Positions 16,086 through 41,308 of a stretch of 53,203 nt of DNA are shown piece after piece. A program made the position numbers and the translations under genes. The stretch covers positions 1 through 53,203 of the IMG/VR virus record IMGVR_UViG_3300020469_000062. The stretch is one strand, 5' to 3'. The notes under the pieces are model-generated. The model searched no databases and had not been told where the DNA came from. It saw nothing but the letters and a program-made list of their open reading frames with translations. Numbering within the stretch: position 1 is the first letter of the stretch; each line of letters opens with the position of its first letter. The DNA is from a virus.

Positions 16086-16089
16086 GTAG

Positions 16090-20274: not shown

Positions 20275-20277
20275 TTA

Positions 20278-21541: not shown

Positions 21542-21549
21542 TATTTATG
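21542..21549 (-). promoter_or_regulatory. Late promoter CATAAATA overlapping the giant gene stop
   Basis: CATAAATA on the minus strand contains the TAA stop (21547-21545) of the 6587-aa gene and lies 19 nt before the ATG of the 414-aa fibre-like gene. It would allow the downstream genes to be transcribed without the preceding 20-kb gene. Confidence 0.6.
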
Positions 21550-24500
21550 GGGTTTCGGGGTCAACTAACTCTTCACCGTAAGTTGAAATGTCTGGAGCAA
21601 CCCAGTCATCAGGGACCGAAGTCTCAACAGCGATGTCTGGATTTGAGTAACCAGAACCAGTTGCACTCAGTTCAATACCTGCAACACCAACTAGTGCACG
21701 GATATTTCCATCAAAACCAGAGATGGAATCTATTCTAACAGTAGGTCTGGTTGTGTAACCAGAACCTCCATTAGTAACTTGAACTGTGTCAATGAATCCA
21801 GATGTCAAGACCGCAGTTGCAGTTGCGTTTTGACCGAATACAGATCCAAGATAATCAAATGTGATTAGAGAGTTTGATGATTCAATAACAGCAACTTCTC
21901 TATCTGCAGTCTCACCTTGAATGTCAATAAAGTCACCAGGTTCAATCGGTGGTACAACTTCAGCAGCGTCAACGTCTGCCTCAGAACCAACGTATGAGAA
22001 GGCAACAAATGTTGATCCAAATCTAGGAACTTCAGAGAAGATAATTCTAGAACCAACAATTTCAAATCCAACTCCAGGTTCTTGGATAACACCATTGAGT
22101 GAACAAATAATGTTGTTCTCAGGTCTTATCACACTAGATTGTACACCATCAGTTAGTGTCAATGAGTAGAATACATCATTACGTTTCAAGTTGAATGATT
22201 GTCTCAATGAGTCAAACTCGAATGAAATATCATCTAACTGTCTTAGTTTACCAATGTAGAATCCAGTGAAAGATGCTCCTAGATCTGGTGGTTCAGTAAA
22301 CTGAATCTGGTTGGAGAACGCTGTGTATGCGTTAGTAGCACCTGGAGGTTGCAATATACCATTAACGAATATTAGGAGGTGTCCTGCGGGATCTGGGAGG
22401 TAAGTAGTACCATTTGTAATAGTAAGTGGGAACGTTGTTGTAGTTCCATCAAATCCTTTAAATGATCTCTTGACTCTTGCCTTAAGATCAACTTGTGAGA
22501 AGATAACAGCACCGTATGAATCTGGTCCCTTAATAGCATCTCTAACACCAAATGATCCTGTAACATCACTTAGGTATAGACGCTTGTTAATACCATCAAC
22601 ACGAACGTCTTGTACAAGAGCAGCACCTGCACCTGCAGTTGTAACTATAGTTGAGATAGAAGCATATCCAACTGGGAATGATGCTGCTAAACCATAATCA
22701 CCTATTTGATCACCATTAGTAAATGTTCCTTGATACTCAATCATGTAGACGTAGTTGTTAGCAATATCTACGTCAGTGATAATACCATATGTGGCAGAAT
22801 CTTGAACACCAGATACAACCTTATAAAGTCTGTTACCAACTGAGAAGTTGTTAAGATTACTAATAATGTTAATACCAAATCTCTTATATCCTCTTGATGC
22901 AATTCTATCACCAACACCGATATCAAGACCTGCATACTTACTTACTACAATGTATTGTCTAGAAGACTCTGGATATACAACAGCAGTAGTTTCAAATGAA
23001 CCTAATAATGTTTCAGTATCAACAGTCAACTTACCACCTGTGTTATCAGTTACAGATGCCTGTACTTTTAAGAATGATGTAGGTTGTGCGATAGCACCAG
23101 ATGTATAACCTTTGAATGGGATGTCAGCAACAAAGTCACCCTTAAGATCAATGATGTGAACACGAGTTTCAATAGCACTAATCTGAGCAGTAGTAGAGTT
23201 AGTTGCACCAACAACATTATCTGATATTGCCCATGGACCTGCGGTAATCTTAACATCAAGATACTTGAAGTTAGCATCTTCAAAGAATCCGTACACAGTA
23301 CCTGTGATAGATGATGCACCCTGTTTTGCAACAGTTTCATTCATTGTGTATGGACCATCAGTTATATTACCATCAATTCTAAATCTTGAATATACTTGAA
23401 CAACATAACCTTGGTTTAGAGTTATATTCTCAATTTCAGCGTATGTGTTACTTAATAAACCATAAACATAATCAGCATTATTTGCTCCACCTTTGATAGA
23501 CACTGGTATAGTTCTTCCAGTAGTATAAACCTTAGTTGGAAGTTCAATATTTCTATTTGTTGTGATTTGTATGTATGTACTATCATCAACTAATTGATCT
23601 TTAATAATCTTGATTAAGTATCTGACAACTGCAGCAACAGATGGTTTACTGTAGTCTGCTGCAGCAGTACTATCATAGAATGAATAGAATCCTGAGTTTG
23701 GAGCAGGAGATGTGAGTGTACCATCAAGAGATGCCAACATATATGTTTGTAGCAAGTCAAGAATGTAGTTCTTAGTGTTAAATCCAGTATCAGCGTAGAA
23801 TAACTTACCACTTTGTGCTTGATATGGATCAAGAGCATTCTTAGTAAGTTTAGCACCCCAAACAAGAATACCAGTAGAAGCATCACCAGTCCAAACACTA
23901 CCGCCAGTAGAACTCTTAATAATAAACTTGTTCCTTAAGGTTGTAAATCCGAAGGAGAATGTAGCAGTAATATAACATCTGAACCAACCATTTCCAAGAG
24001 GAATAGCACCAAATGCATCACCAGTTATACCACCTTGAGGTGTGAATAATGTTCCAGTAGTACCATTTGTAAGATTGAGATCAAAGAATATATTTTGTTC
24101 ACCTGCACCACCTGGATCAAGTTGCATTTGGAATCTGATTCCTTGTGATCCAGATTCTTTAACAAATGCAGAGAAGGTAAATGTCTGAGTTTCACCTGCA
24201 CCAACAGCACCAGTATCGAATGATTCTGTATTATTATCGAATGTAGTTGTACCAGAGTCAAATGTTTCAAATGCAGTTAGACTATAGTCTCTGTTAATTT
24301 CATGTTGACCATTTTGACCATTATTAGGAGTTACATCTTCTGCAGTCTGAGTATCATCAGGAGCAAGAGTTGAAACGTTATCTGTGATTGTTACATTGGT
24401 TGTAGGAGTCCAGTTGACTGAGTATGCCTCTGGGTTAGTCCAAAGGTTAGTACCTGCAGTTTGACCAGAAACAGTAGATATTATTGTTCTCGCATTAGCA

Positions 24501-27500
24501 AGAGTTCTTGTATTTCCAATCTTAGTATACCAAGTATATCCAGTACCAACTCCACCACTAGAGATAGTAGCAGTTGCACCAGATGTCTTACCTGTCAATG
24601 TATTACCTGCAACCCATGCAGTTCCTGTGAATGCACCAACAATTAAGAAGTTGGTTTCTTCTTCATATTCAAGGATAGTAGCATATCCTCCAATGTTAGA
24701 TCTAACAACCTCACCTAACTGGAATGCTGTTGAACTTACACTCTGTATAGTAATCTGATATGCGGTTGTACTGGTTCTAATATTTGTAGTTTGTAAATCA
24801 TGTATGATATCTTCAAGAACATCAGTTACAAATGTATCATAAGTCCATGAACCTGCACCAAACTGAGCAAGAGTTTGTGTTTGTATTTCTTGTAAGTAGT
24901 AGTTCTTATTGTAAAGTAAATTCTTAGAAGCACTTCTACCAACTTTTCTAGCAGGTGAAAGTATATTGACTGCAATCTCTATTAACTCTTTCCATCTGTT
25001 CTTAACCGATATAGCATCACTTAATGTTAATGAATCACGAACAGCAGCAATGTTATGATGTACAAAATTGTATGCACCTGCTGTACCACTATTATCTTCA
25101 CCTTGTGTGTATAATAAGTTATCTATTGCTTTCAATCCAATAGTTTCGAGTTGCTCAACACCATAGACAGTTGCAATCAATAGTTGTTCAACTCCACTAG
25201 TGCTATAGTTGTATTCTAAGGCAGAAGTTAAGAACTTCTCTATTTCTAGAATAATACTATCATTACCACCAGTTTGTAAATCTGATATTGCACCTATGAG
25301 TATATCTTCAAGAGTTTGTTGGAATGCCGATTCACCTAATGCACCACCTGGGAACTGGAACGCTTGATATTGAACTTGGTTTAGGAGGTAGTTAAACTCA
25401 ACACCCATTAATCCAGTTATTTCTGCTCTAATACCTTCTCTGTTAAAGTATATTCTATCTGCAGCAGTATTAAAGTCTGCAGCAGTAGGAGCAATAATAT
25501 CATTGAGTAGTGTAATAAGAGTATCGATTGCAGTCTTAACGTTTGCACACCCACCAGAATCATTTGTTATACCCCAATCACCAACAATAATACCATCAGT
25601 GTTAGTGTAATCTAGATCTCCTGTAACTGCCTGTTTAGCATAGAATGCTAATCTCTCATGTGCATAAGCAGACTGATGAACCTGTAGACGGATATAACGT
25701 AACTCACTATTGTTACCAATATAGAAACCTACAGCAGTAAGTATTCCATCATTACCACCATCTTCAATATCTTGTGCTAATCCATCTAATATTAATCCTA
25801 AGTCAGTCTTACAACGTAATGTACCATCTGTAGATGTACCATTAGCATTTCTAGGCATATCTAGTGCAAGAGCAGGATATCTTGTAAGCATATCATATGC
25901 TGCTTTATCTACAATAACTTTTCTGTTTGCACGAATTAAGTTAGCAGCATCACGGAATCTACCACGAGCATCTACGTCTATCTGATTTGTGTATATTGTA
26001 TCATTTGTGCCATTATGATAATCAACTGTTAATGGAACTTCAGAGAATGCATTTATTGTTCCACCAACAAACTCGTATGCAGGTGTAGATTTAGTTACAG
26101 TTGCAAGATGATCTACAGCAGGGGATTGTGATGCATATGTTAATGTATCAGTGATGATATCAAATAGGTTTGCTATTGTAGATTGAACATCTTGACAATC
26201 AGTTAATGTATATTCAGATTTTGTTATACCGTTAGTGACAGCACTAGAGAAGGTATGTGTATATTGATCATCTGCACTAGATGCACCTACGTTGATCGTG
26301 AACGTATCGTTGGTATGTGAAGAAATTTTAAGAACTTGCTTAGACGCAGGGTCTGTTTTTCTTGGGTATGCAGTAATCTTTGAGTTACCATCCTTGGAAC
26401 AAGTGAATGAGACAGCACCATCCGCAAGGAATACAGAATCACCAGAAACAGTGATGCCATTAGTGGTAGCAGAAACGAATGCATGTGTGTAGTTACCTCC
26501 TGTTATTACGGTGTTAGATAGAGCACTAGAGAATGTATGTGTACTTGTATTGGAATCGGTTCCAATATTGACAGTTATAGTATTATCTCTCTTGATAATA
26601 CCGTTTGCTGCAGCAGATACGAATGTATGAACATATTGATCAGCAGCAGAAGAAGGACCAACATTAACTGTAAATGTGTTGTCTGTCTTTGCTGTAATTC
26701 TTAACCATCTACCAGAGAAAGGATCTGTTGAACGAGGATATGTTTTAGTCTCATGATTACCATCTTTAGTACAAGTAAATGATAGTGAGTTATCAGCAAT
26801 CCTGATCTTGTCTCCTACAACAAATCCGTGAGCATTTTGAGTGATGACTAAAACACCGTCGGAAGTACTATAGGTTGCACCTGTAGCAGTTGATGTTACA
26901 CCATTTTGTGTGATGTTAACATATTTGTCTGTTGCAGGAAGAGTTCCATTTCCACCAGTTCCTCTAGCAAATGTTAGAGAGTTTGCGGTAACCTTAACAT
27001 AAGTTCCTATTCCTAAGTTGTTATCTGGTAGTGTTAATACAGCAACACCAGTGGAAGGATCGTAAGTTGCACCTGTTGGTTGATAGTTTACTATTGGTGA
27101 CTTACCAACATCAAGAGTGAAGTTATTAGCATCAACTCTTGTAACTTCTTGCCAACCTTGAGCAGCAGGATCTTTTGCTCTTGGATAGGTATGGTTTGTA
27201 GCATTGCTGTCCATTGAACATGTAAATGTCAATGAGTTATCAGCAAGTTGAATCTTATCACCAGTTGCAAGATTGTGACTGTTAGAGGTAATATTTAAAA
27301 CACCAGTAGCAGCATTATAAGTTGCATTGGATGCAGTAAGATTTGTATCACTTGTCAATCCATGTCCGTTGCTAGTAACAACCATGTCACCAGTAGCAGG
27401 ATTATATGTTGCAGTTGATGGAGTAAATTGAGTTACAGACTGAGTAAGATAGTTTGATTCTGTGATTGTAGTATCGTACTTCTGTGTCAAACCATGATCA

Positions 27501-30500
27501 CCTAATGTAGACCATGGATGATTGTTAATAACAAATCTAGCTAACTTCTCTACTATATCGTAAGTGTATAATGATTCTTTAAGATCATCTGAAACATGTA
27601 ATAGAGTGATAGGGTTAGTAGTTCTATTAACGTATAATGCTGCAGCATCCCATGTATGACTGTTAGATCCATTTCTAAGATCTTCAACCATTGCTTTAAG
27701 AATATCTCTTACATCATCTTCACAGTTAACTTCTCCACCAACAATAGTAAAGAATGGATAACGCTCTTTCATAATATACACTGCTTCATTAGCAATGTAA
27801 TCGTAGTTCAATATTAGAAGGTCTGCAGCGTTGATATATCTGTGTGTCTTCTGATCAAATCCTCTACTTGCAAGACCTACATTAACTGTGATTGTATCTC
27901 CTGTAACTGCAGTGATAGCAAGGGTTGCTCCGTATGAAGGATCTGTCACTCTTGGATAAGAATGATTTGTTGCGTTATTATCTTTTGTACATGTGAATGT
28001 TAATGAGTTTGCAGCAATCGTAATAGTATCAGATGTTGTATAACTATGAGATCCAATATTGATTTCCATCAAACCTGTAGTTGCATCATAATCAACTGCA
28101 GTTGGAGTGAAACTACTTGATCCAGTTACACTGATTGCATTAGTTGTTGCAGAAACAAATGTATGTACACCACCGATTAATCTAGCAGTTGCTCTGATAG
28201 CATCATTATTAACATATTCATCGATAGTAAAGTCAGGTGCACCAGACCAGTCTTCTAAGAATACTTGCTTATCAGCACCATCAAAATGCCATAATAGTTT
28301 TGTATTAGCATCACCTTGGAACATTCCATTTTGAGGAGTGAATGGTATTGTTGAGTAACGACTTTCTGAACTCAATCTTAGTTCATCAATATGTCCAAAG
28401 AATGCATTTGCTCCTGCATAATCTGCACCAATTCTTAATGGTTTAGCAGCATAGTTTTGACTATCAGTACCAGTTCCTCTTTCAGTACCATCTAGGAATA
28501 TTTTAACAGTAGTAGAAGTTTTCTGTACAACAATATGTGTCCATGTATCTGTAGCAAGAACAGTAGCACCAGATGTTACTAGATCAGAGTTATTAACGTT
28601 ATAACGAACTTGACCACCATTTGTATATAAACGACCTGCTACATCATTTGCTGTTGTTCTAAAGTCAAGTAAAGTTGTAACACCAGATATAGATGCTGCT
28701 GCTGCCTTAACATAAAGTTCTATAGTAAATGCTGCAGTTCCCCATGCAAAGTCACTGGATGAATCTACATTCAAGTAATCTAATGTGACCTGTGCAACAC
28801 CAACACTAACAGTAATCGTATCTGAAGTTACTGCGCTGATTGTTAATGCTTGTCCAGATGCAGGGTCAGTTGATCTTGGATATGGATGATTTGTTGTATT
28901 GCTATCAGCAGTACATGTAAATGTAATCGCACTGTCAGCAATAGTAACCTTATTGCTTGTTGTTAAACTATGAGTTCCAATATTGATTACTAATGTTCCT
29001 GCCTCAGGATCGTAAGATGTACCTGTCTGAGCAGTGTGTGTAGAAGTAGCACCATTTGATGCCTGGATTCCGTTAGTAACACCACTTACAAAGGTATGAG
29101 TATGATTTGCTCTTCCTAATAATAAAGATCCAGTACCAAACTTCTTAGTTGATGTATCAATCTGTGCTTCACCATACCATGTTGGAGGGTTGTAATCTAA
29201 TCCACCACGTTGTGATCTACCAATCTTACCGAGATAAATTGTATTTCTTGCTTGGTTATAACCAACAACTTCTGCTTTACTATCTCTAGATCTGATAACT
29301 TGACCAGTCTGGAATATTCCATCACCAATTCTATCAGTGATTGTTAGTTTTCTAATTCTAGCACCTTCGGTAGCAAGGAAGTCGCCATTATTATTACCGT
29401 AATCAATCTTATAGTTACGAATATATTCATTCTCTTGGAATGTTCCAGTTAAGTTATCATAAGGAATCACATAGTTATTAACTTGCTCATTAGCAGGGAA
29501 ACTACTATCAAATGCAGTTAAGTTATCAGTGAAGTTAACTATACCAATCTGTGATTGTGAGATATTATCAAGAACAATGTTTGGATAAGTCTGTGATGTA
29601 ATTCTGTTGAATAGTAATCCAAAGAATGATGAACCTTCAGATATATTGACCTGTCCTATAAACTCATTAGTTGTAGGATCTTGATAAGTAGATGTTGCAG
29701 TTATTTGAGCAACTACACCAGATTGTGCACCAATAATGTAATCATTTAATACTATATCAAATAATCCTGGTGTTGATTGATATGTACCTGCAGTCTTACT
29801 TAATGTTAGTGTATTTGTAACTGTGATATCAGTTCCATATATCGGATTATATTCTTGATGAGATACTGCTGCTGTTCCATTTTGTGCTCTAGTTACAGTT
29901 AATGTTGTTGAGTTATTATTTTGTACAATAGTGTTTACTAGGAATATTTCTGATTCTACCTGATAGTTTTTACCTGTAACAAATGTACCTGCAGTAACAG
30001 GAGCATCAGCAGCAGTGTTATCGGTTCTATATGCTACCATCTCAATAGATGTAGTTGAAGCACCAATAGTATAACGTAACTGAGCAAGAGGAGTTTCAGC
30101 ACCACTCTGTAAGTTAATTTGTTCAACTTTAGCAGTGTTGCTAGTGAGGTTAGATACATTTTCCCCAAATACAAATAATCCAATATTAGATACATCAGTT
30201 ACCGTACCAATATTAGCAGCAAATCCAGTCGCACCAACAGTTGCTAGTTCACCTAGTGTAAATGTTCCTTGTGTAATAAATCCATCAATATCATTACCAG
30301 TAATCTTAGTAACAGTTAATCTTGCTCCTGATGAAGTACCAACTAATGCCATTCCGATAGTTGGGAAGATGCCACTAATATTATTGAATGTGACAGTCTT
30401 AGTTGCAATCTGATTTATAGTGACATTTACATACTTAATACTTGCAGGAGGTTGTGGTGGTTCGCTGAATACAATAGCATCACCTTGTAACTCAAATGCA

Positions 30501-33500
30501 GTTCCTGGAGTTTGTACAACACCGTTAAGAACAATCATTAACTGGTTAGCATTCGCAACAACGTTGTTACCATCAACAGTTAGAGGGAATGATATTTTTT
30601 GACCATCAAATTGAGTTGATATATCATCTAATCTCTGTACAACAGAAGTTAGAATGTTTTCAGAAGAAGTAAGACGTTTTTGACGGAATAGAACTTCAGT
30701 ATTATTGAACTCAGAATAAACAGGTTCAACAAGAGCAAAGTTTTGGATGTTAGGAACAATCGCATCTCTAGCAAGCTCAACAGATTTAGTTAACTGGAAT
30801 GCAGTTTCTTTATTAGGAATGACACCATAATCATTTAGGTCTAACTCACCAAATACTTTAAATGATGCGGGGTGAACGTTCTTGATAAGAATCTCTTTCC
30901 AATCACCAATAGAAACAGCAGACTTAACAGCATATGAGAAGTCTTGATAGTAGTAACTATCTTGAATCTTTTGAATAATTTCAGATGGTTTACCAACGTC
31001 ATCGATAAACTGACCAGTAGTTTTAGTGATAGAACCAATCTCTAGAACACCAGTAGCAACCTTGATATCAGACATGATACCAGAAGACTTAGAAATAACA
31101 CCAGTTATTCTTGATCCTTGACTGAATGTACCAGTGTAATCGACAATCTTAAGGACTCTAGGTCCTATCTGCCATCCTGAGTTAGTTGAAACATAACCTT
31201 GTGCAGTAGAAGTAGCAAGTGAATCACCTTGATATACAAGTTCTCCTTCTAGGAAGGTTGATGTAATAACGTTTGCTGTAGCAGCACCACCAAATGATTC
31301 AGTTAATACTTGTTGACGACCTGTACCTGCGTTGACATATGATAATGCATCACCAAGTGCAGCGTTAGCAGCAGTAATGGCAAGTTTTAACTGATCTGTT
31401 TCTAGTGAGTTTGCAGTACCAGATATAGCATAGTAAGTTGTAGATGAGTTTAATCTACCAGTCGCACCTGCAGATAGCGGGAAGTCTGCTCCTTCACCAG
31501 TATCAACAACATTCAATGTAACTGCAGAACCATTTGCAATACCATGTGGGAAAGCAAACTGTAGTAATCCTAAGTCAAGGTTTACAACATAGTTGAATGA
31601 TGATCTTAGGTTAACTGCAGGAGTTGATGAATAACCTGCACCTGGGTCTTTAACAATAATAGTATCTAATCTACCGTTCTTAATTGATGCTTCTGCAATA
31701 GCACCACTACCACCACCTCCAGTGATGACAACAGCAGGTGCTTGTGAATATCCAGTTCCAGGGTCTGTAACTGTAATACTGTCTAGTATGCTTGTAGATG
31801 TTAACTGAGCATTGATTGGGAATGTAATCTCAGGACGTAATGTATAATCATGAGGATAATCATAACCAAAGTTATTGTTCTTAAGTTTCTTAATCTTACC
31901 AACACTATCACCTTTAGTAAAGATAGATGCACCAGAACCAAATGGAGGTATAACAACTACAATTTCTGCACCAGATCCAGTCAAACCAGATCCTAATATA
32001 CCACTGATTGCTTCAATGTCTATTGTTGCTGTAGTATAGTTTTTACCTGGAGATGTAACTACAACGCTGTTTATCTGACCTGGAATAGTTACACCGTTAG
32101 CATCAGTTCCATCAGCAACAATAATTTCTACAAATCCACCTTCTCCATCACCACCAATAGGTACACTACTATAAGTTCCTACAGCATACTCAGTTCCAGG
32201 ATTATTGATTTGTACTCTCTCTATCTGTCTTGTAGATTGTATGCTAGTTACAATAGGTAATCTAGTATAGAAACCACCTGGGTTTACAATACGAACAGCA
32301 TTGATTGATCCAACTGCTCTTAATGAAGATGTTGCATATGTTGCTTGATTAATGTCAGCAGCACCTTCTGGTTCATTCAATAGAGGATATTTGATTATAT
32401 CAGCACCACGAGTAATAGTAGCACCTGCAACAGAACTGATTTCAAATACACCCTTATATGGAGAATCAACAACGTCTAAGTAACTTCCTGCAACAACAGG
32501 TGAATCTGATCCAGTTCTAGAAGGATCAAAGTAATATGAAATATTGGTAACTATAGTTTCATCAACTTTAAGTGTTACAGATGGATTAGGTTGTCCTGCA
32601 CCAGTGACACCAGGAGTTCCGACTCTTTCAATAGAGTTGAATGAATATTCAAGTTTGTATAGACTATCTTTAGCAAATGATAAGTTACCACCAACAAGAG
32701 ATGAATGACTGAGGTCAAAGATATACTGATGACCATAGTACATCTTCAAGACAGGTGACTTAACAAATATATTGACACTCGATGCTGATGTAGCAGGACT
32801 TGTTTGTGCTACTGTTGGTAGTTTATATACAAATTCTAGAGGACTGATTACCCTATTAACAGCGAATGCACCATCATATTCATCATACACAGTGCTACCT
32901 ATAGTCTGGCTAGGGTTACCATCAACATAAATCATATCTCCAGTGGAGAGATAATGACTTGTGTTAGTGATTACATACACTTCATCACTGTTAGCTACTG
33001 CAGTGACTTGTAAAATTTTGTCAAGATTTGCAACTAATGTAATCTTGAGTACGCCAGTAAGGTTTGTTATCTGTGTTGTGCTATATGCAGTGTTGAATGA
33101 TATATCACCCGATGTTAGTTGTACAACAGATCCAACAATGTATGCTGATGATCCAGAGACTTCATCGATTCTTACAGAGTAATCTGCAGTTGCAAATGGT
33201 TTGAACTTGGCAAAACTATCTAAGTTACCAGAACCAGTTGATGTGGTGCCATCAAGGTTAAAATCATTAAGATCAATATCAAAAGTTCCAGGAGTTGTAT
33301 TAGTGATTGTCGCAAATGTATATCCTTCTATAATGTTGATATCGTTAGGTATAGGTCCTACAATACCATAAGTTGATTGCTCACTAAACTGTTCAGTAAC
33401 AAGTTGACCAGTATTTAAGTCATCTGTCCATGTATTATTGTTTACAGCAAGATATATCTGATTATTATCAACATCTCTTCTAACAACATAACCGCTATTA

Positions 33501-36500
33501 ACAAATACACCAGATGAGTTATTAAGGCGTAGTTTTGAACCAATACTAAAGTTGAATGCTTGATTTATAGTTAACTTCTGTACATTATCAATTTTGATAG
33601 TAGGTGTTACCTTAAAGAAGTATCTGTCTTTAACAACAGCAGATACACTAAGTTTTTGTGATCCAGGTGAAGGAACTGTAGCAGTTCTAGAACTCCATAT
33701 GTCTTGTGTATATGTAAGTGTCTGAGTACCTTCAGTCATAGTGATTGTAGCATCATCAAAGTCTAATGACTGGAATCCTGCCTCAGATAATGCGTAACCA
33801 GTATTCTGTATTGTAAGTGTACTACCAGTTACAGGAGTAACTGCAGTTCTTGTAAATCCTATCTGTGTATTAGTTCCTGTAGAAATAGTACCAATTCTTG
33901 CAGCATCTGCATTTTTATCAGACTTAAGTGCAAATCCTTCAAAATCTATAAGATCATAACGATTAGTATTAGTAGTAAACCATGCTGTATTAGTCCAACT
34001 ATATGCAAATCCAAATGCACCTGCTGTAGGTAAAGCACTGACATCACTTGGTACAGTTGGTGTAACTGCTCTATTTCTCAATCTAAGATTATCAACAAAG
34101 AACTGACCCTGTTCATTTGCTCTAAAGTTACCTATAGTACCACTTCTTCCAGGATACTGTCCAATGTAAAGATCTTTACTACCTAAACTTGTACCTGCAA
34201 TAGTACTCTGTATAACTTGTATACCATTAACATAAACGGTATATACGTTTCCTTCTTTCTTCAATCCAATAAACTGCCATGTATTATCAGCATACATGTT
34301 ACTTAAAGCAGATTGTGCTGCTCCAGATGCAGAGTTAAGTTTAGTAGAACTATTTGTTATAACAAGTTCTAACTTACCTCCTGATATATCATAGTATAAC
34401 CAAAGACCACCAGTTGCTACTTCAGCGTCACCAATACCAATCAGTGTTTGTTGTGTAGGCGATACAGAAGTTACAGTAGAATCTTTGTATACCATCATCT
34501 CGATAGTAAAGTCACTAGCGAGTTTAGTACCTAGTTGAGCAGAAGTAATCTGAAGATTTGCTTGTGTCCAAGATGTTTGTCCTGTTTGATATCCATTGAT
34601 CTTAGCAACGTTGTCGGCATATGTAATAGAGTTACTAGTTGATGTAGATGTTAATGTATATGCAGTAGTACTATCAGCAGTAGAACCTGCAGTGAATGGG
34701 AATAAGAACTCATTTCTATTCCATTGAGTCTGACCTACAGCGTGAATATCACCAGAGTTATCAACATCTATTGAGTGAACAGTAAGTCCTTCAATCTTAT
34801 TTGCAGTTGATTGATTGGTTGTATGATTTTTAATTTTACCATCATAACCAATTTTAACAGTATCGATAGTTGTTAATGTACTTGTATTGTCTATTCTTGT
34901 AAATGCTACGTTCAAATCACCAAAGATATCAATAGCAGAAGTTGCTGCCATAGTAAGATCTCTTCCTGGAGCAAGATATCTATAGTTCCAAATAAGAGCA
35001 CCTGTTGTGTCTATCTTACCAACCCACCAACTATCTCTAGTTGCATCATCTGCTTTAAGTCTTAGTCCACCAGTAATATAGATTTCGTTAAACTCATCAA
35101 TATCAAGACTTGAGTTTAGTATAGAATATAGACTATTTGCATACTGATTAACCCAGTCTACTGTTATAACAGTAGTACCAAAACTAATCTTAGCAACTGC
35201 AACATCAATATCTGCAGCAGAAGAAGTAGCAGCAATTTCTAATGAAGCATATACGTCTGTTCCATTAACTATAATGTCGGTGATCTTCTCAGACTTATTA
35301 GAAGAAGCAAGTTTTCTCTTGATTGCAAAATTACCAGAAGTATCAATAGATGCTATAAATGCATCATAAGGTGCACCTGAGTTAGTATTGGTAAATCCTC
35401 CAATAATAAATCTAGTGCTAGAATATTTCTTAATGCATGTAATGTGATCAGCACGAGTTGAACCAGAGATACCTGCATATCCTTTTTGGAATGATAGTGC
35501 AGCAGTCAGACCGTTTGATGCTTCAACATACTTAGCAAGTACAATATCTGGATTATATTGCGAAAGAATTGAACTATTTGGTCTATTCTCACCAACAACC
35601 CAAATATCATGACCATCAACAAATAATCTAATAAATTCGGACTCTTCTTGACCAGTTGCTAGTTCTAATGTCTTCTCCCATTCTTTAACACCAGATGCAG
35701 ATAGTTTTGCTAAAAATGCAACTGCATTACCTGATGAGTCTTTAGTTTTACCACAAAGATAAACTTCTTTGTCAGAGTTTACATAAACGTCATTTACTTT
35801 TACATATTGTGCGTTACTAAACTTAGCGATATAGTAATCTGCCTTTTTGAATACTTGAGGATGTGAAAGGATAACTCTAGGATTACTTGTATAACCAAAA
35901 CCTGAGTTTACAATATTAACAGTTTCAATAGATCCAACTGATGTTACAACTGCTTCTAACTGACCACCAGTACCATTACCATCAATAATGATAGTAGGAG
36001 GAATATCACTATTATATCCAGATCCTGTTGTATTAATAACTATTTCTTCAATACCTTTAAACTGTCTGACTGAATATGTCTTATTGGTATTTGCCATGAC
36101 AGGAGTATAGTCAACAAATACACTATCACCTGCTTGTAAGTTATGTGGATTGACTGTAGTAAGAACACCAAAGTTATTACCACTTATATTTTCAAATGTA
36201 TATGCTTCAACTGTTTCACCTACGATTCTTGAAATACGAGCAGAAACACCAGAACCATCAGTATCAGTGTTGTCAAAGATTAGTCTATCATTGACCTGAT
36301 AAGATATACCTGGGTTTTCAACTGTAAATCCAGTTACCGAAGCATCTTCAAACTTAGTTGTAGTCTCAACTTCAATATCAACCTTAGAATCCAACTTAAC
36401 AGTTGGGAAGTAATCAAATAATTGTAATGGTGACTCTTCAAAGACCTGATCGGGATCAGCAGTCTCATCCGCTTCAATAACACCACTTCTATCTTCGTCT

Positions 36501-39500
36501 TCTATCTCAAATAGTAGTATATCACCATTCTCTAGTGTTAGAGCGTTTGTAGAGGCATTTGGTGCCCTCTCAACGTCAATATCAACATTCTCATAAGGAT
36601 CACGATATCTAACAACACCAGTAGGAATATTTTGCTGAATAGCAGTTGCACTTAAGTTCCAAGTGTCTACAACCGAGTTGAAATCAGGTCCTAAAACATA
36701 TGGGAATAATGCACCACCATCTTCAGTAGAATCAATAGTAACAAAGTAACAATATCTACCTGTTGGATAATCAGGTGTTTTACAGAATCTACCGTTATAT
36801 TGATCGAGTGCACCTAGACCAAACACATATTCATAGTCTTCTACAAAATTACCTGCAACTTCAGCAGTTAATAATGGTCCTGCTGTTCTAACAGGAGTGG
36901 GATTAGAATCTACATTATATACTAGATTAGTTTTAAGTCTGTATGAAGTATTTAATTTTGCTATTGATGAGGATTGATCTGTAGGATCTGAGTATCCATA
37001 AGGACCGTATATTGGGTTTCCATCAAATGCCCAACCAATAATAGGAGAGTGTTCGAGTCCATCTTCCTTTTCTTTTATTAAACCTGCTGTATTTTCAAAT
37101 AAGTTATCACCAAGAATATATCTAAGTGTTTGAGGATTGCTTAAGTGTGCATATTCACCACCATACTGATTATTATATCCTTCAAATACAGAACCTTTAG
37201 CACTATCAAATGTTGTTGATTTTTGTAAGTTATAAGTCCACTCAAATACGTTAGCATTAAATGAAGCACCTGCACCAACTGAGTTTAGACTTATTACAGT
37301 AGTTCCCTGTACATAACTAATACCTCTGTTAACAATAGTGATACCAGTCACTCTACCTGCATTTTCTCCATCAGTGTCTATAGTTGCTCTAGCAACAGCA
37401 CCAAAACCTGCACCTTGTATAGTGATCTCAGGAGCAGTCGTATATCCAGATCCAGCAGATATAATCGCAATAGATATGATTCTACCGTTATTGACTATAG
37501 CTTGTGCAACAGCACCACTACCAGAACTTAATGTTACAGTAGGAGTTGATGTATATGAAGTACCACCTGCTGATATGGCAACTGATTGAATAGGACCACG
37601 AACAGATGCTGTAGCAGCAGCACCGCTTCCACCGCCACCTACAATAGTGATTTGAGGTTGTGAAGTATATCCAGTACCACCTGAGTTGATTAATATTCTA
37701 GATACAACTCCTTTTGTAATGATAGCAGTTGCAGCAGCACCAGAACCGCCACCGCCAACGATTGAAACTAGAGGAGAAGAAGTAAATCCTGTACCACCAG
37801 TAGTAACAGTAATTTCACTAACAGAACCGTTAACAACAACCGCAGCAGTTGCACCAGTTCCTCCACCACCACTGATAGTTAATACTGGTGGAGATGCAGC
37901 ATCATATCCAGATCCTGCATTAGTAATACCAACACTAGTAACAGCACCAAATGTTTTCTTCCTAGTTGATTTGTATGACCATATTGATACTCCATTTACC
38001 CATGTACCTATAGGTCCTGGAGATATAGTATTTTTTGTTGATATAGTTGTAGAAACTATAGGGAAACGATTTAACTTTCGTTGGTTGCCTGGTAATAGTG
38101 CAGACCCTGGAAATGGACCAATTTTATAGTTTGGTATACCAGTTGAAGCTAGGTATGCATAGGTTGTATTAAAAAATGAGTTTTGTACGTTAGTTGTGTA
38201 TGGTCCAATAGCATTGAATACTGCAGTGCTATCAGATTTACCTTTGTTCAAGTCAACAGATACAAGTATATTACCCTGTGGTACCACAGTTGCGGGTTGG
38301 GGTAACTGATATTGGAATACTGTGCTTGTATCTCTAGATGTGACTAAGAATGAACCATTATAGATGATTGGGTTAGCACCATATACAGTAACTTGATCTC
38401 CAACCAACAAACCATGATTATTTGCACAAGTTACAGTAGCAAACTGATTATTAACACCACCGAAGGTTATACCAGTAACTTGAATAAGTTTCTTAACGTT
38501 ATACAACCATGTTGTAAGGTGAGGGTCAAGACTAGTACCACCTAACTTAGAAACTGTTAGTTTGTCCCCTGGTAGGTAGTAAGAACCTGTATCAACTAGT
38601 GTTGTTTGCTGTGCATCAACTATACCTACTATGTTCATCACTACTTCTTGTAGTGTTCCCTTATTAACGTATACTGTAAAGTTAGAAGAAACTTGTGTAG
38701 CAGAATCCCAATCTTCTACAACACCATTTGCTGAACGAGTACATTCAATAAACTGGTTAAGTGATTTTTCCTTATATTGTACAACTTCTGTTCTAGTACC
38801 AGATCCAATAACAAATTCACCGTTTCTTTCTGGCCAACCTACAGTAGAGTCAACCGTAATGATTGAGTCGGTTGTATTGAGAGGTTCTGCAAGTTTTGTC
38901 TTATAAGGTACGGTAAATGTCCCAGTAATAGTCTCTTCTGATAAAACAAGTTCAAATATCTCTACATCTGAGGTTTTAATCGAAATATAGTTCTCTACTA
39001 ATGCACTTGCTGCTAAAACGTTTGGATCAGCAATGTCCGCATCTTGTGTAAGTAATCCATCTCTTATATTAGTTGCATCTCCAGAAACTTTAGTTGCTCT
39101 GAGAATTGTATCAATAGACCAAGTTGCAGCAGATGGTTTGATGATCTGATCTTTTGGATATGTAACTGAAACACTCTCACCATAAAGAAGTTTGAAAAGA
39201 TATGCAATACTGAAGGATGTACCTTTAGAAGAGTAGAAATCTTTTACAGTTTTGATAGATGTTCTTACATCAATCTTAGAATAGTCAAGTTCGGGAACAT
39301 CAGGTAAGAATTGTTCAGTGTATTTGTCTAATAGTCTTTTTACAAACAATGCATCAAGACATTTTACACTAGCACCAACTATTGCGGGTGCTGCAGTAGT
39401 ATTACTTGTAAATACCGCATTACCATCTTCAGTATATGAAGTGATACCAGATGCTGCTCTAGCACACCCAGTAAATGCTGCTTTCTTGTATCCAGATCCA

Positions 39501-41308
39501 TTTTCAGTAACTGCAAAACCAGTAACTTCGTTTAGACCTATTTCAGCAGATGATTTAGCACTCGGAGGTGATTGAATGACAATTTCTGGAGGTGTAGCAG
39601 CAGAATAACCAGAACCAAAGGCAGTTATGTTAATATCTGTGATTTGACCATTGAAAATAGAAGCAACTGCAGTAGCACCAGTTCCACCGTTAGTTCTATT
39701 ATCTACAATGTATACTGAAGGTACATCATCAAATCCACTACCACCATTAAGTAAATCAACTCTTATAACACGCCCATCTCCATCAACAACTGTTTCTAGT
39801 ATCTGTGCACCTACAGGATCGACTATAGCGACTCTAGGTGAAGTTGTATATCCTTGTCCCGCATTTAATACAGATATGCTACCAACTTTACCTTCGCTAG
39901 TTAAGTTTGCTCTTAATGCTGCTTTGATTGGGTTAGAACCTGTTGGTTCATCAACATACACTGTTGGTGCGGTAGTATATCCAAATCCGTTTGCGGTAAC
40001 GGGTATAGAAGCGATCTGTTCATTAGAAAGTACAGGAGTTCCTAGTTTCGCACCACCTGGTTGAATAAAAGTGATTCTAGGTGTAAATGTATATCCAGAA
40101 CCAGAGTTAGTAATGTTAAGTCCAGTAACTGCACCGTCAGCAACTGTTGCGGTGATTGTTGCTTGAGAGGATCCTGCTTTAGTTGGTGTTTGTACTTGCA
40201 CAACAGGAGGATTAGTTGTACTATATCCCTTTCCTCCGTCTAGTAGAGTGATTGATTTTAAACCATTGACAAGTGCGGTAGCAGAAGCACCAGAACCTGC
40301 TGCGGAGTTAATACTAACTTGAGGTGGATACTCAAAACGATATCCAGATCCAATCGCACTAGATGATACACTTGTTAAAGTTCCAGTATCACTAATACGA
40401 GCAAATCCAACCGCACCACTACCAAATGAAGGTATTGGTGCTTCTATAGAGTGGATTGATAAGAAACGCCCATTTAGAGGTGCTGTTTTAAATATAAACT
40501 GATTCTTATCTATGAAGTAGTCTACTTTAGGTACTAGCAGTCTATTATCATAGATTACGTTTAAATATTCTTCGTTCTGCGGTTCATATGATACTCCGTT
40601 ACGAGTCATAGTAAATTGCTTCTTTCCGTCACCAAATGCGCCAGATAGATTATCTAATCCGTAAATTGTACTTTCTACAAAACCACTAAGGTAATAAATG
40701 TATGTTTCTCCCGCATCATCAGCAGGGAGTTTAGTTCTTGGCGCGGTAGTGAAGACAATATTGCTACCAGAAACAGTATAGTCCGTGTTTGGTATTAATA
40801 TCTGACCATATAGTGATACAATCAAATGCTGTGCACTAGGAGGTCCTATTGGACTATCTTGAGATGTTAGAGGAAATGATGTTGTATTTCCGTTAAACTG
40901 AGTTATTATTGTTGCAAGTGTTGTCCACTTAAGTTTTACCTGATCATATGAGATTCCTGGAGCAAGTGAGATGTTTGGTGCATTCTCAACATCTTCATAG
41001 AATATAACTTCATCGCCTATTAGAATAGATCCATTCTTTTCTAAGAACGGATCTACACTCTCTACTACAATTTTATCATCTGTTGCATTTATTGCTTCTA
41101 CAACAGTTGTTTGTCCATCAAGTATTCCGATATCCAATTTATCGATATCAAGATACTGAAGGAAGTTATTAAGTATATTTTGTCCTAAACCAGTTTTTTC
41201 TTGTGACTTATAATAGTATTCAAGAAATTTATTAAACAGGGGGTATTCTGACCCAATAAAATCGGGTGATTGTGAAACAATCGACTGAGAAACCTTATTA
41301 ATGTTCAT
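21545..41308 (-). CDS. Giant modular baseplate-associated adhesin/fibre, 6587 aa
   Basis: One uninterrupted frame of 19.8 kb. Approximate layout by residue: 1-60 helical anchor (SPDFIGSEYPLFNKFLEYYY, LNNFLQYLDIDKLD); 130-295 two units of the NGVxQ..xY.v.G..I.F..aP type; 300-640 GSGY repeats; 648-732 second half of the anchor (LLDKYTEQFLPDVPELDYSK, DFYSSKGT, LFKLLYG, YPKDQIIKPS); 1120-1346 GSGY repeats; 1413-1543 YHYH domain; 1823-2203 beta-propeller-like; 2203-2425 LamG/ConA-like; 3003-3226 GSGY repeats; 3556-3636 NGV unit; 4030-4356 second LamG-like domain carrying an insertion; about 4000-5060 five HTF/FTCxxDxN..YPR units; four helical units around 4480-5510; 5613-5840 jelly-roll-like binding module (NGWFRCYI, WGAKL); 6276-6436 two NGV units; 6490-6587 GSGY repeats. 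It lies between gp6 and gp8 where T4 has gp7. The likely role is a giant fibre anchored to the baseplate that binds host surface glycans. Confidence 0.8.
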   Translation of the reverse strand: MNINKVSQSIVSQSPDFIGSEYPLFNKFLEYYYKSQEKTGLGQNILNNFLQYLDIDKLDIGILDGQTTVVEAINATDDKIVVESVDPFLEKNGSILIGDEVIFYEDVENAPNISLAPGISYDQVKLKWTTLATIITQFNGNTTSFPLTSQDSPIGPPSAQHLIVSLYGQILIPNTDYTVSGSNIVFTTAPRTKLPADDAGETYIYYLSGFVESTIYGLDNLSGAFGDGKKQFTMTRNGVSYEPQNEEYLNVIYDNRLLVPKVDYFIDKNQFIFKTAPLNGRFLSIHSIEAPIPSFGSGAVGFARISDTGTLTSVSSSAIGSGYRFEYPPQVSINSAAGSGASATALVNGLKSITLLDGGKGYSTTNPPVVQVQTPTKAGSSQATITATVADGAVTGLNITNSGSGYTFTPRITFIQPGGAKLGTPVLSNEQIASIPVTANGFGYTTAPTVYVDEPTGSNPIKAALRANLTSEGKVGSISVLNAGQGYTTSPRVAIVDPVGAQILETVVDGDGRVIRVDLLNGGSGFDDVPSVYIVDNRTNGGTGATAVASIFNGQITDINITAFGSGYSAATPPEIVIQSPPSAKSSAEIGLNEVTGFAVTENGSGYKKAAFTGCARAASGITSYTEDGNAVFTSNTTAAPAIVGASVKCLDALFVKRLLDKYTEQFLPDVPELDYSKIDVRTSIKTVKDFYSSKGTSFSIAYLFKLLYGESVSVTYPKDQIIKPSAATWSIDTILRATKVSGDATNIRDGLLTQDADIADPNVLAASALVENYISIKTSDVEIFELVLSEETITGTFTVPYKTKLAEPLNTTDSIITVDSTVGWPERNGEFVIGSGTRTEVVQYKEKSLNQFIECTRSANGVVEDWDSATQVSSNFTVYVNKGTLQEVVMNIVGIVDAQQTTLVDTGSYYLPGDKLTVSKLGGTSLDPHLTTWLYNVKKLIQVTGITFGGVNNQFATVTCANNHGLLVGDQVTVYGANPIIYNGSFLVTSRDTSTVFQYQLPQPATVVPQGNILVSVDLNKGKSDSTAVFNAIGPYTTNVQNSFFNTTYAYLASTGIPNYKIGPFPGSALLPGNQRKLNRFPIVSTTISTKNTISPGPIGTWVNGVSIWSYKSTRKKTFGAVTSVGITNAGSGYDAASPPVLTISGGGGTGATAAVVVNGSVSEITVTTGGTGFTSSPLVSIVGGGGSGAAATAIITKGVVSRILINSGGTGYTSQPQITIVGGGGSGAAATASVRGPIQSVAISAGGTSYTSTPTVTLSSGSGAVAQAIVNNGRIISIAIISAGSGYTTAPEITIQGAGFGAVARATIDTDGENAGRVTGITIVNRGISYVQGTTVISLNSVGAGASFNANVFEWTYNLQKSTTFDSAKGSVFEGYNNQYGGEYAHLSNPQTLRYILGDNLFENTAGLIKEKEDGLEHSPIIGWAFDGNPIYGPYGYSDPTDQSSSIAKLNTSYRLKTNLVYNVDSNPTPVRTAGPLLTAEVAGNFVEDYEYVFGLGALDQYNGRFCKTPDYPTGRYCYFVTIDSTEDGGALFPYVLGPDFNSVVDTWNLSATAIQQNIPTGVVRYRDPYENVDIDVERAPNASTNALTLENGDILLFEIEDEDRSGVIEADETADPDQVFEESPLQLFDYFPTVKLDSKVDIEVETTTKFEDASVTGFTVENPGISYQVNDRLIFDNTDTDGSGVSARISRIVGETVEAYTFENISGNNFGVLTTVNPHNLQAGDSVFVDYTPVMANTNKTYSVRQFKGIEEIVINTTGSGYNSDIPPTIIIDGNGTGGQLEAVVTSVGSIETVNIVNSGFGYTSNPRVILSHPQVFKKADYYIAKFSNAQYVKVNDVYVNSDKEVYLCGKTKDSSGNAVAFLAKLSASGVKEWEKTLELATGQEESEFIRLFVDGHDIWVVGENRPNSSILSQYNPDIVLAKYVEASNGLTAALSFQKGYAGISGSTRADHITCIKKYSSTRFIIGGFTNTNSGAPYDAFIASIDTSGNFAIKRKLASSNKSEKITDIIVNGTDVYASLEIAATSSAADIDVAVAKISFGTTVITVDWVNQYANSLYSILNSSLDIDEFNEIYITGGLRLKADDATRDSWWVGKIDTTGALIWNYRYLAPGRDLTMAATSAIDIFGDLNVAFTRIDNTSTLTTIDTVKIGYDGKIKNHTTNQSTANKIEGLTVHSIDVDNSGDIHAVGQTQWNRNEFLFPFTAGSTADSTTAYTLTSTSTSNSITYADNVAKINGYQTGQTSWTQANLQITSAQLGTKLASDFTIEMMVYKDSTVTSVSPTQQTLIGIGDAEVATGGLWLYYDISGGKLELVITNSSTKLNSASGAAQSALSNMYADNTWQFIGLKKEGNVYTVYVNGIQVIQSTIAGTSLGSKDLYIGQYPGRSGTIGNFRANEQGQFFVDNLRLRNRAVTPTVPSDVSALPTAGAFGFAYSWTNTAWFTTNTNRYDLIDFEGFALKSDKNADAARIGTISTGTNTQIGFTRTAVTPVTGSTLTIQNTGYALSEAGFQSLDFDDATITMTEGTQTLTYTQDIWSSRTATVPSPGSQKLSVSAVVKDRYFFKVTPTIKIDNVQKLTINQAFNFSIGSKLRLNNSSGVFVNSGYVVRRDVDNNQIYLAVNNNTWTDDLNTGQLVTEQFSEQSTYGIVGPIPNDINIIEGYTFATITNTTPGTFDIDLNDFNLDGTTSTGSGNLDSFAKFKPFATADYSVRIDEVSGSSAYIVGSVVQLTSGDISFNTAYSTTQITNLTGVLKITLVANLDKILQVTAVANSDEVYVITNTSHYLSTGDMIYVDGNPSQTIGSTVYDEYDGAFAVNRVISPLEFVYKLPTVAQTSPATSASSVNIFVKSPVLKMYYGHQYIFDLSHSSLVGGNLSFAKDSLYKLEYSFNSIERVGTPGVTGAGQPNPSVTLKVDETIVTNISYYFDPSRTGSDSPVVAGSYLDVVDSPYKGVFEISSVAGATITRGADIIKYPLLNEPEGAADINQATYATSSLRAVGSINAVRIVNPGGFYTRLPIVTSIQSTRQIERVQINNPGTEYAVGTYSSVPIGGDGEGGFVEIIVADGTDANGVTIPGQINSVVVTSPGKNYTTATIDIEAISGILGSGLTGSGAEIVVVIPPFGSGASIFTKGDSVGKIKKLKNNNFGYDYPHDYTLRPEITFPINAQLTSTSILDSITVTDPGTGYSQAPAVVITGGGGSGAIAEASIKNGRLDTIIVKDPGAGYSSTPAVNLRSSFNYVVNLDLGLLQFAFPHGIANGSAVTLNVVDTGEGADFPLSAGATGRLNSSTTYYAISGTANSLETDQLKLAITAANAALGDALSYVNAGTGRQQVLTESFGGAATANVITSTFLEGELVYQGDSLATSTAQGYVSTNSGWQIGPRVLKIVDYTGTFSQGSRITGVISKSSGIMSDIKVATGVLEIGSITKTTGQFIDDVGKPSEIIQKIQDSYYYQDFSYAVKSAVSIGDWKEILIKNVHPASFKVFGELDLNDYGVIPNKETAFQLTKSVELARDAIVPNIQNFALVEPVYSEFNNTEVLFRQKRLTSSENILTSVVQRLDDISTQFDGQKISFPLTVDGNNVVANANQLMIVLNGVVQTPGTAFELQGDAIVFSEPPQPPASIKYVNVTINQIATKTVTFNNISGIFPTIGMALVGTSSGARLTVTKITGNDIDGFITQGTFTLGELATVGATGFAANIGTVTDVSNIGLFVFGENVSNLTSNTAKVEQINLQSGAETPLAQLRYTIGASTTSIEMVAYRTDNTAADAPVTAGTFVTGKNYQVESEIFLVNTIVQNNNSTTLTVTRAQNGTAAVSHQEYNPIYGTDITVTNTLTLSKTAGTYQSTPGLFDIVLNDYIIGAQSGVVAQITATSTYQDPTTNEFIGQVNISEGSSFFGLLFNRITSQTYPNIVLDNISQSQIGIVNFTDNLTAFDSSFPANEQVNNYVIPYDNLTGTFQENEYIRNYKIDYGNNNGDFLATEGARIRKLTITDRIGDGIFQTGQVIRSRDSKAEVVGYNQARNTIYLGKIGRSQRGGLDYNPPTWYGEAQIDTSTKKFGTGSLLLGRANHTHTFVSGVTNGIQASNGATSTHTAQTGTSYDPEAGTLVINIGTHSLTTSNKVTIADSAITFTCTADSNTTNHPYPRSTDPASGQALTISAVTSDTITVSVGVAQVTLDYLNVDSSSDFAWGTAAFTIELYVKAAAASISGVTTLLDFRTTANDVAGRLYTNGGQVRYNVNNSDLVTSGATVLATDTWTHIVVQKTSTTVKIFLDGTERGTGTDSQNYAAKPLRIGADYAGANAFFGHIDELRLSSESRYSTIPFTPQNGMFQGDANTKLLWHFDGADKQVFLEDWSGAPDFTIDEYVNNDAIRATARLIGGVHTFVSATTNAISVTGSSSFTPTAVDYDATTGLMEINIGSHSYTTSDTITIAANSLTFTCTKDNNATNHSYPRVTDPSYGATLAITAVTGDTITVNVGLASRGFDQKTHRYINAADLLILNYDYIANEAVYIMKERYPFFTIVGGEVNCEDDVRDILKAMVEDLRNGSNSHTWDAAALYVNRTTNPITLLHVSDDLKESLYTYDIVEKLARFVINNHPWSTLGDHGLTQKYDTTITESNYLTQSVTQFTPSTATYNPATGDMVVTSNGHGLTSDTNLTASNATYNAATGVLNITSNSHNLATGDKIQLADNSLTFTCSMDSNATNHTYPRAKDPAAQGWQEVTRVDANNFTLDVGKSPIVNYQPTGATYDPSTGVAVLTLPDNNLGIGTYVKVTANSLTFARGTGGNGTLPATDKYVNITQNGVTSTATGATYSTSDGVLVITQNAHGFVVGDKIRIADNSLSFTCTKDGNHETKTYPRSTDPFSGRWLRITAKTDNTFTVNVGPSSAADQYVHTFVSAAANGIIKRDNTITVNIGTDSNTSTHTFSSALSNTVITGGNYTHAFVSATTNGITVSGDSVFLADGAVSFTCSKDGNSKITAYPRKTDPASKQVLKISSHTNDTFTINVGASSADDQYTHTFSSAVTNGITKSEYTLTDCQDVQSTIANLFDIITDTLTYASQSPAVDHLATVTKSTPAYEFVGGTINAFSEVPLTVDYHNGTNDTIYTNQIDVDARGRFRDAANLIRANRKVIVDKAAYDMLTRYPALALDMPRNANGTSTDGTLRCKTDLGLILDGLAQDIEDGGNDGILTAVGFYIGNNSELRYIRLQVHQSAYAHERLAFYAKQAVTGDLDYTNTDGIIVGDWGITNDSGGCANVKTAIDTLITLLNDIIAPTAADFNTAADRIYFNREGIRAEITGLMGVEFNYLLNQVQYQAFQFPGGALGESAFQQTLEDILIGAISDLQTGGNDSIILEIEKFLTSALEYNYSTSGVEQLLIATVYGVEQLETIGLKAIDNLLYTQGEDNSGTAGAYNFVHHNIAAVRDSLTLSDAISVKNRWKELIEIAVNILSPARKVGRSASKNLLYNKNYYLQEIQTQTLAQFGAGSWTYDTFVTDVLEDIIHDLQTTNIRTSTTAYQITIQSVSSTAFQLGEVVRSNIGGYATILEYEEETNFLIVGAFTGTAWVAGNTLTGKTSGATATISSGGVGTGYTWYTKIGNTRTLANARTIISTVSGQTAGTNLWTNPEAYSVNWTPTTNVTITDNVSTLAPDDTQTAEDVTPNNGQNGQHEINRDYSLTAFETFDSGTTTFDNNTESFDTGAVGAGETQTFTFSAFVKESGSQGIRFQMQLDPGGAGEQNIFFDLNLTNGTTGTLFTPQGGITGDAFGAIPLGNGWFRCYITATFSFGFTTLRNKFIIKSSTGGSVWTGDASTGILVWGAKLTKNALDPYQAQSGKLFYADTGFNTKNYILDLLQTYMLASLDGTLTSPAPNSGFYSFYDSTAAADYSKPSVAAVVRYLIKIIKDQLVDDSTYIQITTNRNIELPTKVYTTGRTIPVSIKGGANNADYVYGLLSNTYAEIENITLNQGYVVQVYSRFRIDGNITDGPYTMNETVAKQGASSITGTVYGFFEDANFKYLDVKITAGPWAISDNVVGATNSTTAQISAIETRVHIIDLKGDFVADIPFKGYTSGAIAQPTSFLKVQASVTDNTGGKLTVDTETLLGSFETTAVVYPESSRQYIVVSKYAGLDIGVGDRIASRGYKRFGINIISNLNNFSVGNRLYKVVSGVQDSATYGIITDVDIANNYVYMIEYQGTFTNGDQIGDYGLAASFPVGYASISTIVTTAGAGAALVQDVRVDGINKRLYLSDVTGSFGVRDAIKGPDSYGAVIFSQVDLKARVKRSFKGFDGTTTTFPLTITNGTTYLPDPAGHLLIFVNGILQPPGATNAYTAFSNQIQFTEPPDLGASFTGFYIGKLRQLDDISFEFDSLRQSFNLKRNDVFYSLTLTDGVQSSVIRPENNIICSLNGVIQEPGVGFEIVGSRIIFSEVPRFGSTFVAFSYVGSEADVDAAEVVPPIEPGDFIDIQGETADREVAVIESSNSLITFDYLGSVFGQNATATAVLTSGFIDTVQVTNGGSGYTTRPTVRIDSISGFDGNIRALVGVAGIELSATGSGYSNPDIAVETSVPDDWVAPDISTYGEELVDPETP
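28793..29118 (-). other. HTF/FTC repeat module inserted inside the second LamG-like domain
   Basis: In the giant protein, a LamG-type first strand (KKFGTGSLLL) is followed by about 108 residues of an HTFVS...FTCTADSN..HPYPRSTDP module before the expected continuation (DYLNVDSSSDFAWGTAAFTI...) appears. Four more copies of the inserted module follow downstream near 27.9, 27.2, 26.7 and 26.35 kb. Confidence 0.6.
37270..37950 (-). repeat. Run of GSGY beta repeats in the giant gene
   Basis: About seven consecutive units of roughly 30 residues (90 bp) fit the pattern (I/V)xxGGxGYTxxPxVxIxGGGGSGAxAxAxVxxG. Other runs lie near 39.4-40.4 kb, 31.6-32.3 kb and 21.55-21.8 kb in the same gene. Related units occur in gp8, the 1394-aa protein, the 832-aa protein and the end of the 2122-aa fibre. 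Confidence 0.8.

Follow-up and report, generated by a model that had tools for sequence, protein, structure and literature searches.

The window, a stretch of viral DNA of 53,203 nt that was analysed at its full length, encodes a protein of 6587 aa that is very probably the gp7-class baseplate wedge protein of a cyanomyovirus, with a gp7 core that is cut into three pieces by two insertions and followed by an extension. We base the gp7 reading on a three-part homology, on the conserved place of the gene after gp25-gp6 and on the lack of any other gp7 candidate in related genomes. Such a gene is ordinary for its family, i.e., it is a normal, already catalogued baseplate gp7 of T4-like cyanophages. 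The gp7 annotation of orthologues, their giant size and the virion presence of an orthologue of the same size are already known. For the three-way split of the core we found no description in the open-licence literature. It forms, together with a graded insertion series from 503 to 8573 aa, the new detail, which can guide structural studies of cyanophage baseplates and makes it easier to annotate the many cyanophage genes recorded only as ‘virion structural protein’.

The giant reading frame and its neighbourhood

The frame starts with ATG, shows no internal stop and lies in a window without any N. The calculated mass of its product is 702.8 kDa (~703 kDa). An earlier note on this DNA had described a single open frame of 6587 residues over 19.8 kb, which is confirmed by the start codon, the absence of internal stops and the coding composition. 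That is, the third-codon-position GC is low throughout (0.13-0.26 per 300-aa bin) and the two alternative frames are stop-rich throughout, which leaves no room for a hidden frame switch. The probability of an open frame of this length by chance is about 1e-203. Furthermore, 20-kb stretches of ~60 other (environmental) loci show the homologous frame open over 4.5-6.9 thousand residues, and the frame is therefore not an assembly artefact. The source record is a 53-kb linear virus fragment, and the window's own genome is known from this fragment alone.

The baseplate genes around the frame are the following.

43348..43767, minus strand: gp25 (baseplate wedge); phrog_261, E 3e-63
41315..43348, minus strand: gp6 (baseplate wedge), directly upstream of giant gp7; phrog_219, E 2e-221
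21545..41308, minus strand: giant gp7 gene
20278..21522, minus strand: gp9-like wedge/tail fibre connector, directly downstream of giant gp7; PF07880, E 8.3e-10; phrog_677; same position as gp9 of P-SSM4
14520..16052, minus strand: gp8, three genes downstream of giant gp7; PF09215, E 7.5e-18; phrog_438

Read along the minus strand, the order is an 832-aa wedge subunit, a 190-aa PAAR-like protein, gp25, gp6, giant gp7, the gp9-type connector (414 aa), a 1394-aa YHYH-domain protein, gp8, a 2408-aa DUF4815 protein, a structural protein of 2122 aa and, at the edge of the window, a homologue of a neck protein. The order in P-SSM4 is identical (gp25, gp6, gp7 of 7312 aa, gp9, hypothetical, gp8, VrlC, YadA-domain protein, gp13), and gp25-gp6-giant, or the fetched part of it, is common to P-SSM4, S-SM1, S-TIM4 and S-SZBM1. 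The giant gene thus directly follows gp25-gp6, the place of a gp7-class gene. It had been placed between gp6 and gp8 before; the slot after gp6 stands, but the gene that follows resembles gp9, and gp8 comes only three genes downstream.

Sequence evidence for a gp7 core in three pieces

Three segments of the protein align, in order, with T4 gp7.

41123..41308, minus strand: core segment 1 (aa 1-62), N-terminal helices; hhalign onto T4 gp7 646-684, a weak match by itself but collinear with those of segments 2 and 3
39104..39388, minus strand: core segment 2 (aa 641-735), DFYSSKG...LFKLLYGE motif; hhalign onto T4 gp7 725-759; PF23786 sub-threshold at 39143-39301
30809..31003, minus strand: core segment 3 (aa 3436-3500), YYYQDFSYAVKS...HPASFKVFGE motif; hhalign onto T4 gp7 863-895; PF23786 positions 235-280 at 30845-30970

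Seven gp7 sequences from T4-like phages served as targets of the alignments, with 150 column shuffles as controls. Segment 2 scores 63.3 (shuffle maximum 24.4) and segment 3 scores 45.4 (shuffle maximum 24.7), while the 22.9 of segment 1 is reached or exceeded by 2/150 shuffles. When 16 T4 proteins are compared singly, gp7 is top for all three segments, clearly so for segments 2 and 3, whereas segment 1 alone is not significant (gp7 16.5 vs. 15.7). When the core segments of 13 diverse relatives are joined, the score over gp7 643-889 is 94.2 (200-shuffle maximum 31.3; reversed alignment 17.3), and this joined core prefers gp7 among the 16 T4 proteins (72.7 vs. 18.6 for the runner-up). The ordered match thereby covers the gp6-pairing helical core that characterizes the gp7 class (T4 gp7 ~643-760 and 860-895). 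It also bears out the earlier expectation that residues 1-60 joined to the part from 648 onward would match gp7.

Searches with single sequences agree with this for segment 2. With aa 639-1110, the sole phmmer match in the PDB is gp7 of a KP1-type T4-like phage (9f4a, E 0.37), in which DFYSSKG...LFKLLYGE is aligned to DFYATKG...LFKLLYNE. The region of segment 3 alone finds no PDB match with phmmer, and the one PDB sequence matched by a profile of aa 1-1120, an amino acid transporter subunit (E 0.49), is a chance hit. Statistics for individual segments are modest, and every PDB E-value from these searches exceeds 0.1. The second motif, YYQ-FSY...HPAGF--FGE, is common to compact relatives of the protein; T4 gp7 859-890 reads RSYYVMKIKSNLPSSRWKSDVIRFVHPVGF. 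In the giant protein it is found at aa 3453 and thus 2763 residues past the first motif, compared to a distance of 126 in T4.

With regard to Pfam, PF23786 (Baseplate_wedge) reaches 23.4 bits on the giant protein, which is below the curated cut-off of 27; the two stretches that match at this sub-threshold level are correctly ordered. The compact relatives phiM12, IME-SM1 and Melnitz-1 pass this cut-off. None of the T4-type domains Gp7_helical, Gp7_5th and Gp7_6th is found on the giant protein, while T4 matches all three. We therefore place the protein in the gp7 class but outside the T4 (Straboviridae) subfamily. Among NCBIfam models the giant protein is unmatched; TIGR02242 gives matches under its cut-off to phiM12, Melnitz-1 and, at a very weak level, IME-SM1.

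Compact relatives and predicted structures

The slot after gp6 is also occupied by compact relatives, i.e., proteins of 503 aa in IME-SM1 (Stenotrophomonas), 896 aa in Melnitz-1 (Methylophilales) and 1007 aa in phiM12 (Sinorhizobium), and relatives of intermediate length are given by S-B68 (1915 aa) and S-CAM1 (3032 aa). The compact relatives share the gene place and the core motifs with the giant protein, but in compact and intermediate forms the insertions are absent or far smaller, so that the relatives grade by size into the giant form. In phiM12 and IME-SM1, segment 1 is not detected by single-sequence search.

In the PDB, a profile built from Melnitz-like proteins alone retrieves gp7 and nothing else, through three ordered stretches (E 0.26). 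The AF2 model of a Melnitz-like protein (896 aa) is poor overall (mean pLDDT 53). Nevertheless, its only Foldseek matches in the PDB with E<0.001 are the gp7 proteins of the KP1-type phage (2.4e-4) and of T4 (5.8e-4). VIA-align places its aa 225..617 on gp7 760-851 (domain V) with Z-scores of 8.7 (rmsd 4.8, 91 residues) and 8.6, compared to ~6 for unrelated barrels. T4 gp7 domain V is thus matched in the compact relative's model, and, judging from this model, the outer edges of the second insertion of the giant protein may represent gp7 domain V in split form.

For aa 1-1120 of the giant protein, the AF2 model has a mean pLDDT of 57, with a mostly confident beta insertion (aa 64-623) and low-confidence core helices. 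It has no PDB match with E<0.001 and does not find gp7; VIA-align reports middling matches only (best Z 7.7). The isolated core chain may fail to fold without gp6.

We also observed in the Melnitz-like gp7 model (L169, 4001-6688) that aa 363-506 are similar to a domain of the T4 tail sheath protein gp18 (VIA Z 8.3 to 3fo8); this part separates one half of the domain V-like barrel from the other. In the IME-SM1 gp7, a match to PF22639 (Gp18 domain I) falls just short of the cut-off.

Compared to T4 gp7 (1032 aa, PDB 5iv5), the giant protein has the three core segments in order and the place after gp6 in common. T4 gp7 differs in the location of its extra mass, which lies N-terminal of the core (~640 aa), and it ends with domain VI. 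Its segments 1 and 2 are not separated by a large insertion, its segments 2 and 3 are only ~100 aa apart, and the YHYH, LamG and repeat domains are all missing.

Insertions, extension and domains

The extra mass of the giant protein is made up of two insertions (~580 and ~2700 aa) and a C-terminal extension of ~3100 aa. The protein had been suggested to be a gp7 equivalent with one huge extension. The assignment to gp7 holds, but the third core piece at aa 3436-3500 divides the supposed single extension into two insertions and a C-terminal part. The respective regions and domains are as follows.

39389..41122, minus strand: insertion 1 (aa 63-640), beta-rich; aa 64-623 mostly modelled with confidence by AF2; missing in phiM12 and IME-SM1
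31004..39103, minus strand: insertion 2 (aa 736-3435), with YHYH domain, GSGY repeats and weak LamG
36728..37327, minus strand: YHYH domain (aa 1328-1527); PF14240, E 3.8e-32, 112 bits vs. cut-off 25
34154..34387, minus strand: possible LamG (aa 2308-2385); PF02210, E 0.0067, 17.3 bits, below the Pfam cut-off of 22.9
21548..30808, minus strand: C-terminal extension (aa 3501-6587)
28364..28777, minus strand: LamG domain (aa 4178-4315); PF13385, E 1.2e-15
23609..29158, minus strand: zone in which orthologues vary most (aa 4051-5900); median identity 47-70%, close to 50% in most bins
23834..24181, minus strand: jelly-roll (aa 5710-5825), which resembles the GTA head spike fibre Rcc01080; PDB 6tb9, E 1.9e-7

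Within insertion 1, aa 214-291 resemble phage tailspike/gp10-type domains with middling Z-scores of 5-7.6. The C-terminal extension is absent or short (~60-170 aa after segment 3) in T4, phiM12, IME-SM1 and S-B68.

Of the domain mix listed in the earlier note, the YHYH domain is confirmed by PF14240, albeit without the namesake histidines: the domain keeps an HSPIIGWAFDG-type motif, RYCYF replaces the expected YHYH, and the string YHYH occurs neither in the giant protein nor in 430 translated frames of family loci. The histidines of YHYH are predicted to bind metal, along with a predicted role as metal-dependent hydrolase (PMC7824862). This role is doubtful for the giant protein since these histidines are missing. 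From the two LamG domains, the one at aa 4178-4315 holds, while the one at aa 2308-2385 stays under the Pfam cut-off. The jelly-roll is supported by the match to Rcc01080. No support was obtained from Pfam or PDB searches for a propeller (~aa 1815-2205), for which region the PDB search returned nothing useful. Repeat families had been put at five or more in the note; three are clear from motif counts, namely the GSGY-type turn (22 hits), FTC..YPR..DP (5) and HTF-SA-TN (6).

Distribution in cyanophages and presence in virions

The family phrog_701 (6136 positions) spans nearly the whole giant protein. A tblastn search with aa 1-1050 found 479 phage records, nearly all of them cyanophages, with at least 80% of the query covered in 290. 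Identity within this part is up to 87% for metaG-MbCM1 and ~74% for P-SSM4. Annotated lengths are 6171 (S-SSM5), 6180 (S-SM1), 6405 (S-RIM50) and 6603 aa (S-TIM4), with longer forms in P-SSM7 (7124 aa), P-SSM4 (7312 aa) and P-RSM6 (8573 aa). Cyanomyovirus gp7 (phrog_701) shares with the giant protein the slot after gp25-gp6, a size of 6.2-8.6 thousand residues and domains over most of its length, and differs in the zone of aa 4051-5900, which varies in length and make-up. Here, orthologue identity is ~50% across much of the zone, compared to >80% near the core. The domain mix had been taken to go beyond that of usual fibres, but the rarity implied by this is not supported, as both size and make-up are usual in Kyanoviridae. 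Two orthologues are already named gp7 (P-SSM4 PSSM4_080; S-RIM50 R290704_094, baseplate wedge initiator gp7), and many cyanophage records label the orthologue merely as ‘virion structural protein’.

We also searched five other cyanophage genome records (S-SM1, S-SSM5, S-TIM4, P-SSM4, metaG-MbCM1) for a second gp7 candidate with PF23786 and found none. In each of them the model matches the giant gene only, in three places (model positions ~4-54, 158-221 and 235-280); in metaG-MbCM1, the matched gene is split into several annotated genes. The giant gene is near single copy, and the earlier statement that no other gp7 candidate is visible extends to these five records. A separate gp7 elsewhere was considered and rejected, given that searches of cyanophage records with PF23786 and Gp7_helical gave no candidate. 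Gp7_helical is present in no cyanophage record searched; T4 alone matches it.

Orthologues are found in virions, and much of the proteomics called for in the earlier note is already available. For S-SZBM1_208 (baseplate wedge initiator, 6619 aa, 724 kDa), mass spectrometry of CsCl-purified virions yielded 71 peptides, which cover 13.5% of the protein (PMC9146016). Its gene lies after gp25 and gp6, and the protein shows ~42% identity to the giant protein over most of the first 3970 aa and again at the C-terminus. T4-GC969 was detected in virions of S-SM1 (PMC3037559), and SSM1_102, the S-SM1 orthologue of the giant protein, carries this label. The T4-GC labels in metaG-MbCM1 looked unreliable (GC_117 is gp14 in P-SSM4) and were left out of the evidence. 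In S-CREM2, a 1937-aa protein between gp6-like and gp8-like proteins was detected with 91 unique peptides (PMC10665884); its position and size suggest an orthologue.

Proposed architecture and alternative explanations

The three segments would meet in space with two copies of gp6 as a T4-type core bundle, with about six giant gp7 copies (~4 MDa) per baseplate. The inserted domains (YHYH, LamG, jelly-roll, repeats) would protrude from the wedge and contact the host surface or anchor fibres. We consider this arrangement as a whole moderately probable. Host contact is suggested by the adhesion-type domains and by the drop of orthologue identity in aa 4051-5900, and host binding by the inserted domains is plausible.

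Minimal gp7-class proteins offer a comparison. In XM1 gp17 (a gp7 orthologue of 242 aa from a Vibrio phage), a loop and the C-terminus hold the tail spikes (PMC10457771), and in Anabaena phage A-1(L) the long tail fibre is anchored by a loop at the C-terminus of the wedge protein gp32 (PMC10966104). Insertions at such places in giant gp7 fit these observations. The likeness is one of class, and spikes and fibres are separate proteins in both phages, whereas the cyanophage giant gp7 carries large domains in the same chain at places comparable to these holding sites.

A more far-reaching and only tentative idea is that wedge founder and main host-binding adhesin are one molecule, i.e., about six 700-kDa gp7 chains with their core threaded thrice through the wedge and the binding domains on loops. 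If so, receptor contact could act directly on the contraction-triggering (gp6)2-gp7 core bundle, and a separate fibre relay as in T4 would be less needed.

Among the alternatives to an intact gp7-class chain, cleavage in the virion of a single translated chain, which would release adhesin parts from the gp7 core, fares best, although we regard it as unlikely. The core is spread over 3500 aa with a modular remainder, and the published peptide coverage for S-SZBM1 is too low to exclude processing. On the other hand, neither a protease site nor a self-cleaving domain was identified in the giant protein, and the open frame is intact in dozens of contigs. Moreover, segment 3 lies beyond insertion 2, such that a cut there separates core pieces in sequence. 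In addition, we know of no cleavage of T4 gp7.

Less credible still is a fibre or adhesin that merely lies beside gp6, with another protein as the true gp7, which was the second option of the earlier note. Most of the length is indeed beta-rich, repeat-rich and adhesion-like, and the ‘virion structural protein’ label of many cyanophage records is compatible with a fibre. This explanation is countered by the three ordered gp7 segments, the match of the compact relative's model to gp7, the near single copy of the gene and the five cyanophage records without another PF23786 match. The first option of that note, a gp7 equivalent, is well supported by the same ordered match and model.

An assembly or annotation artefact, for which only the annotation of the homologous metaG-MbCM1 stretch as three genes speaks, can practically be dismissed given the steady codon composition, the ~60 open environmental loci and the single annotated gene in the records of P-SSM4, S-SM1, S-TIM4, S-SSM5, S-RIM50, P-RSM6 and S-SZBM1.

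Further observations on annotation and the gene cluster

The metaG-MbCM1 stretch (L001, 18001-37767; ~19.8 kb) is a case where split annotation hides a single large protein. Within the window, a gp9-type gene and the 1394-aa YHYH gene lie between gp7 and gp8 (14520-21522), as in P-SSM4, whereas gp8 directly follows gp7 in T4. Between gp25 and the 832-aa wedge subunit, positions 43898-44470 encode the 190-aa protein with a PAAR-type PHROG match, a possible spike tip. The 832-aa protein itself (44470-46968; phrog_719) contains GSGY-type repeats that resemble those of the giant protein.
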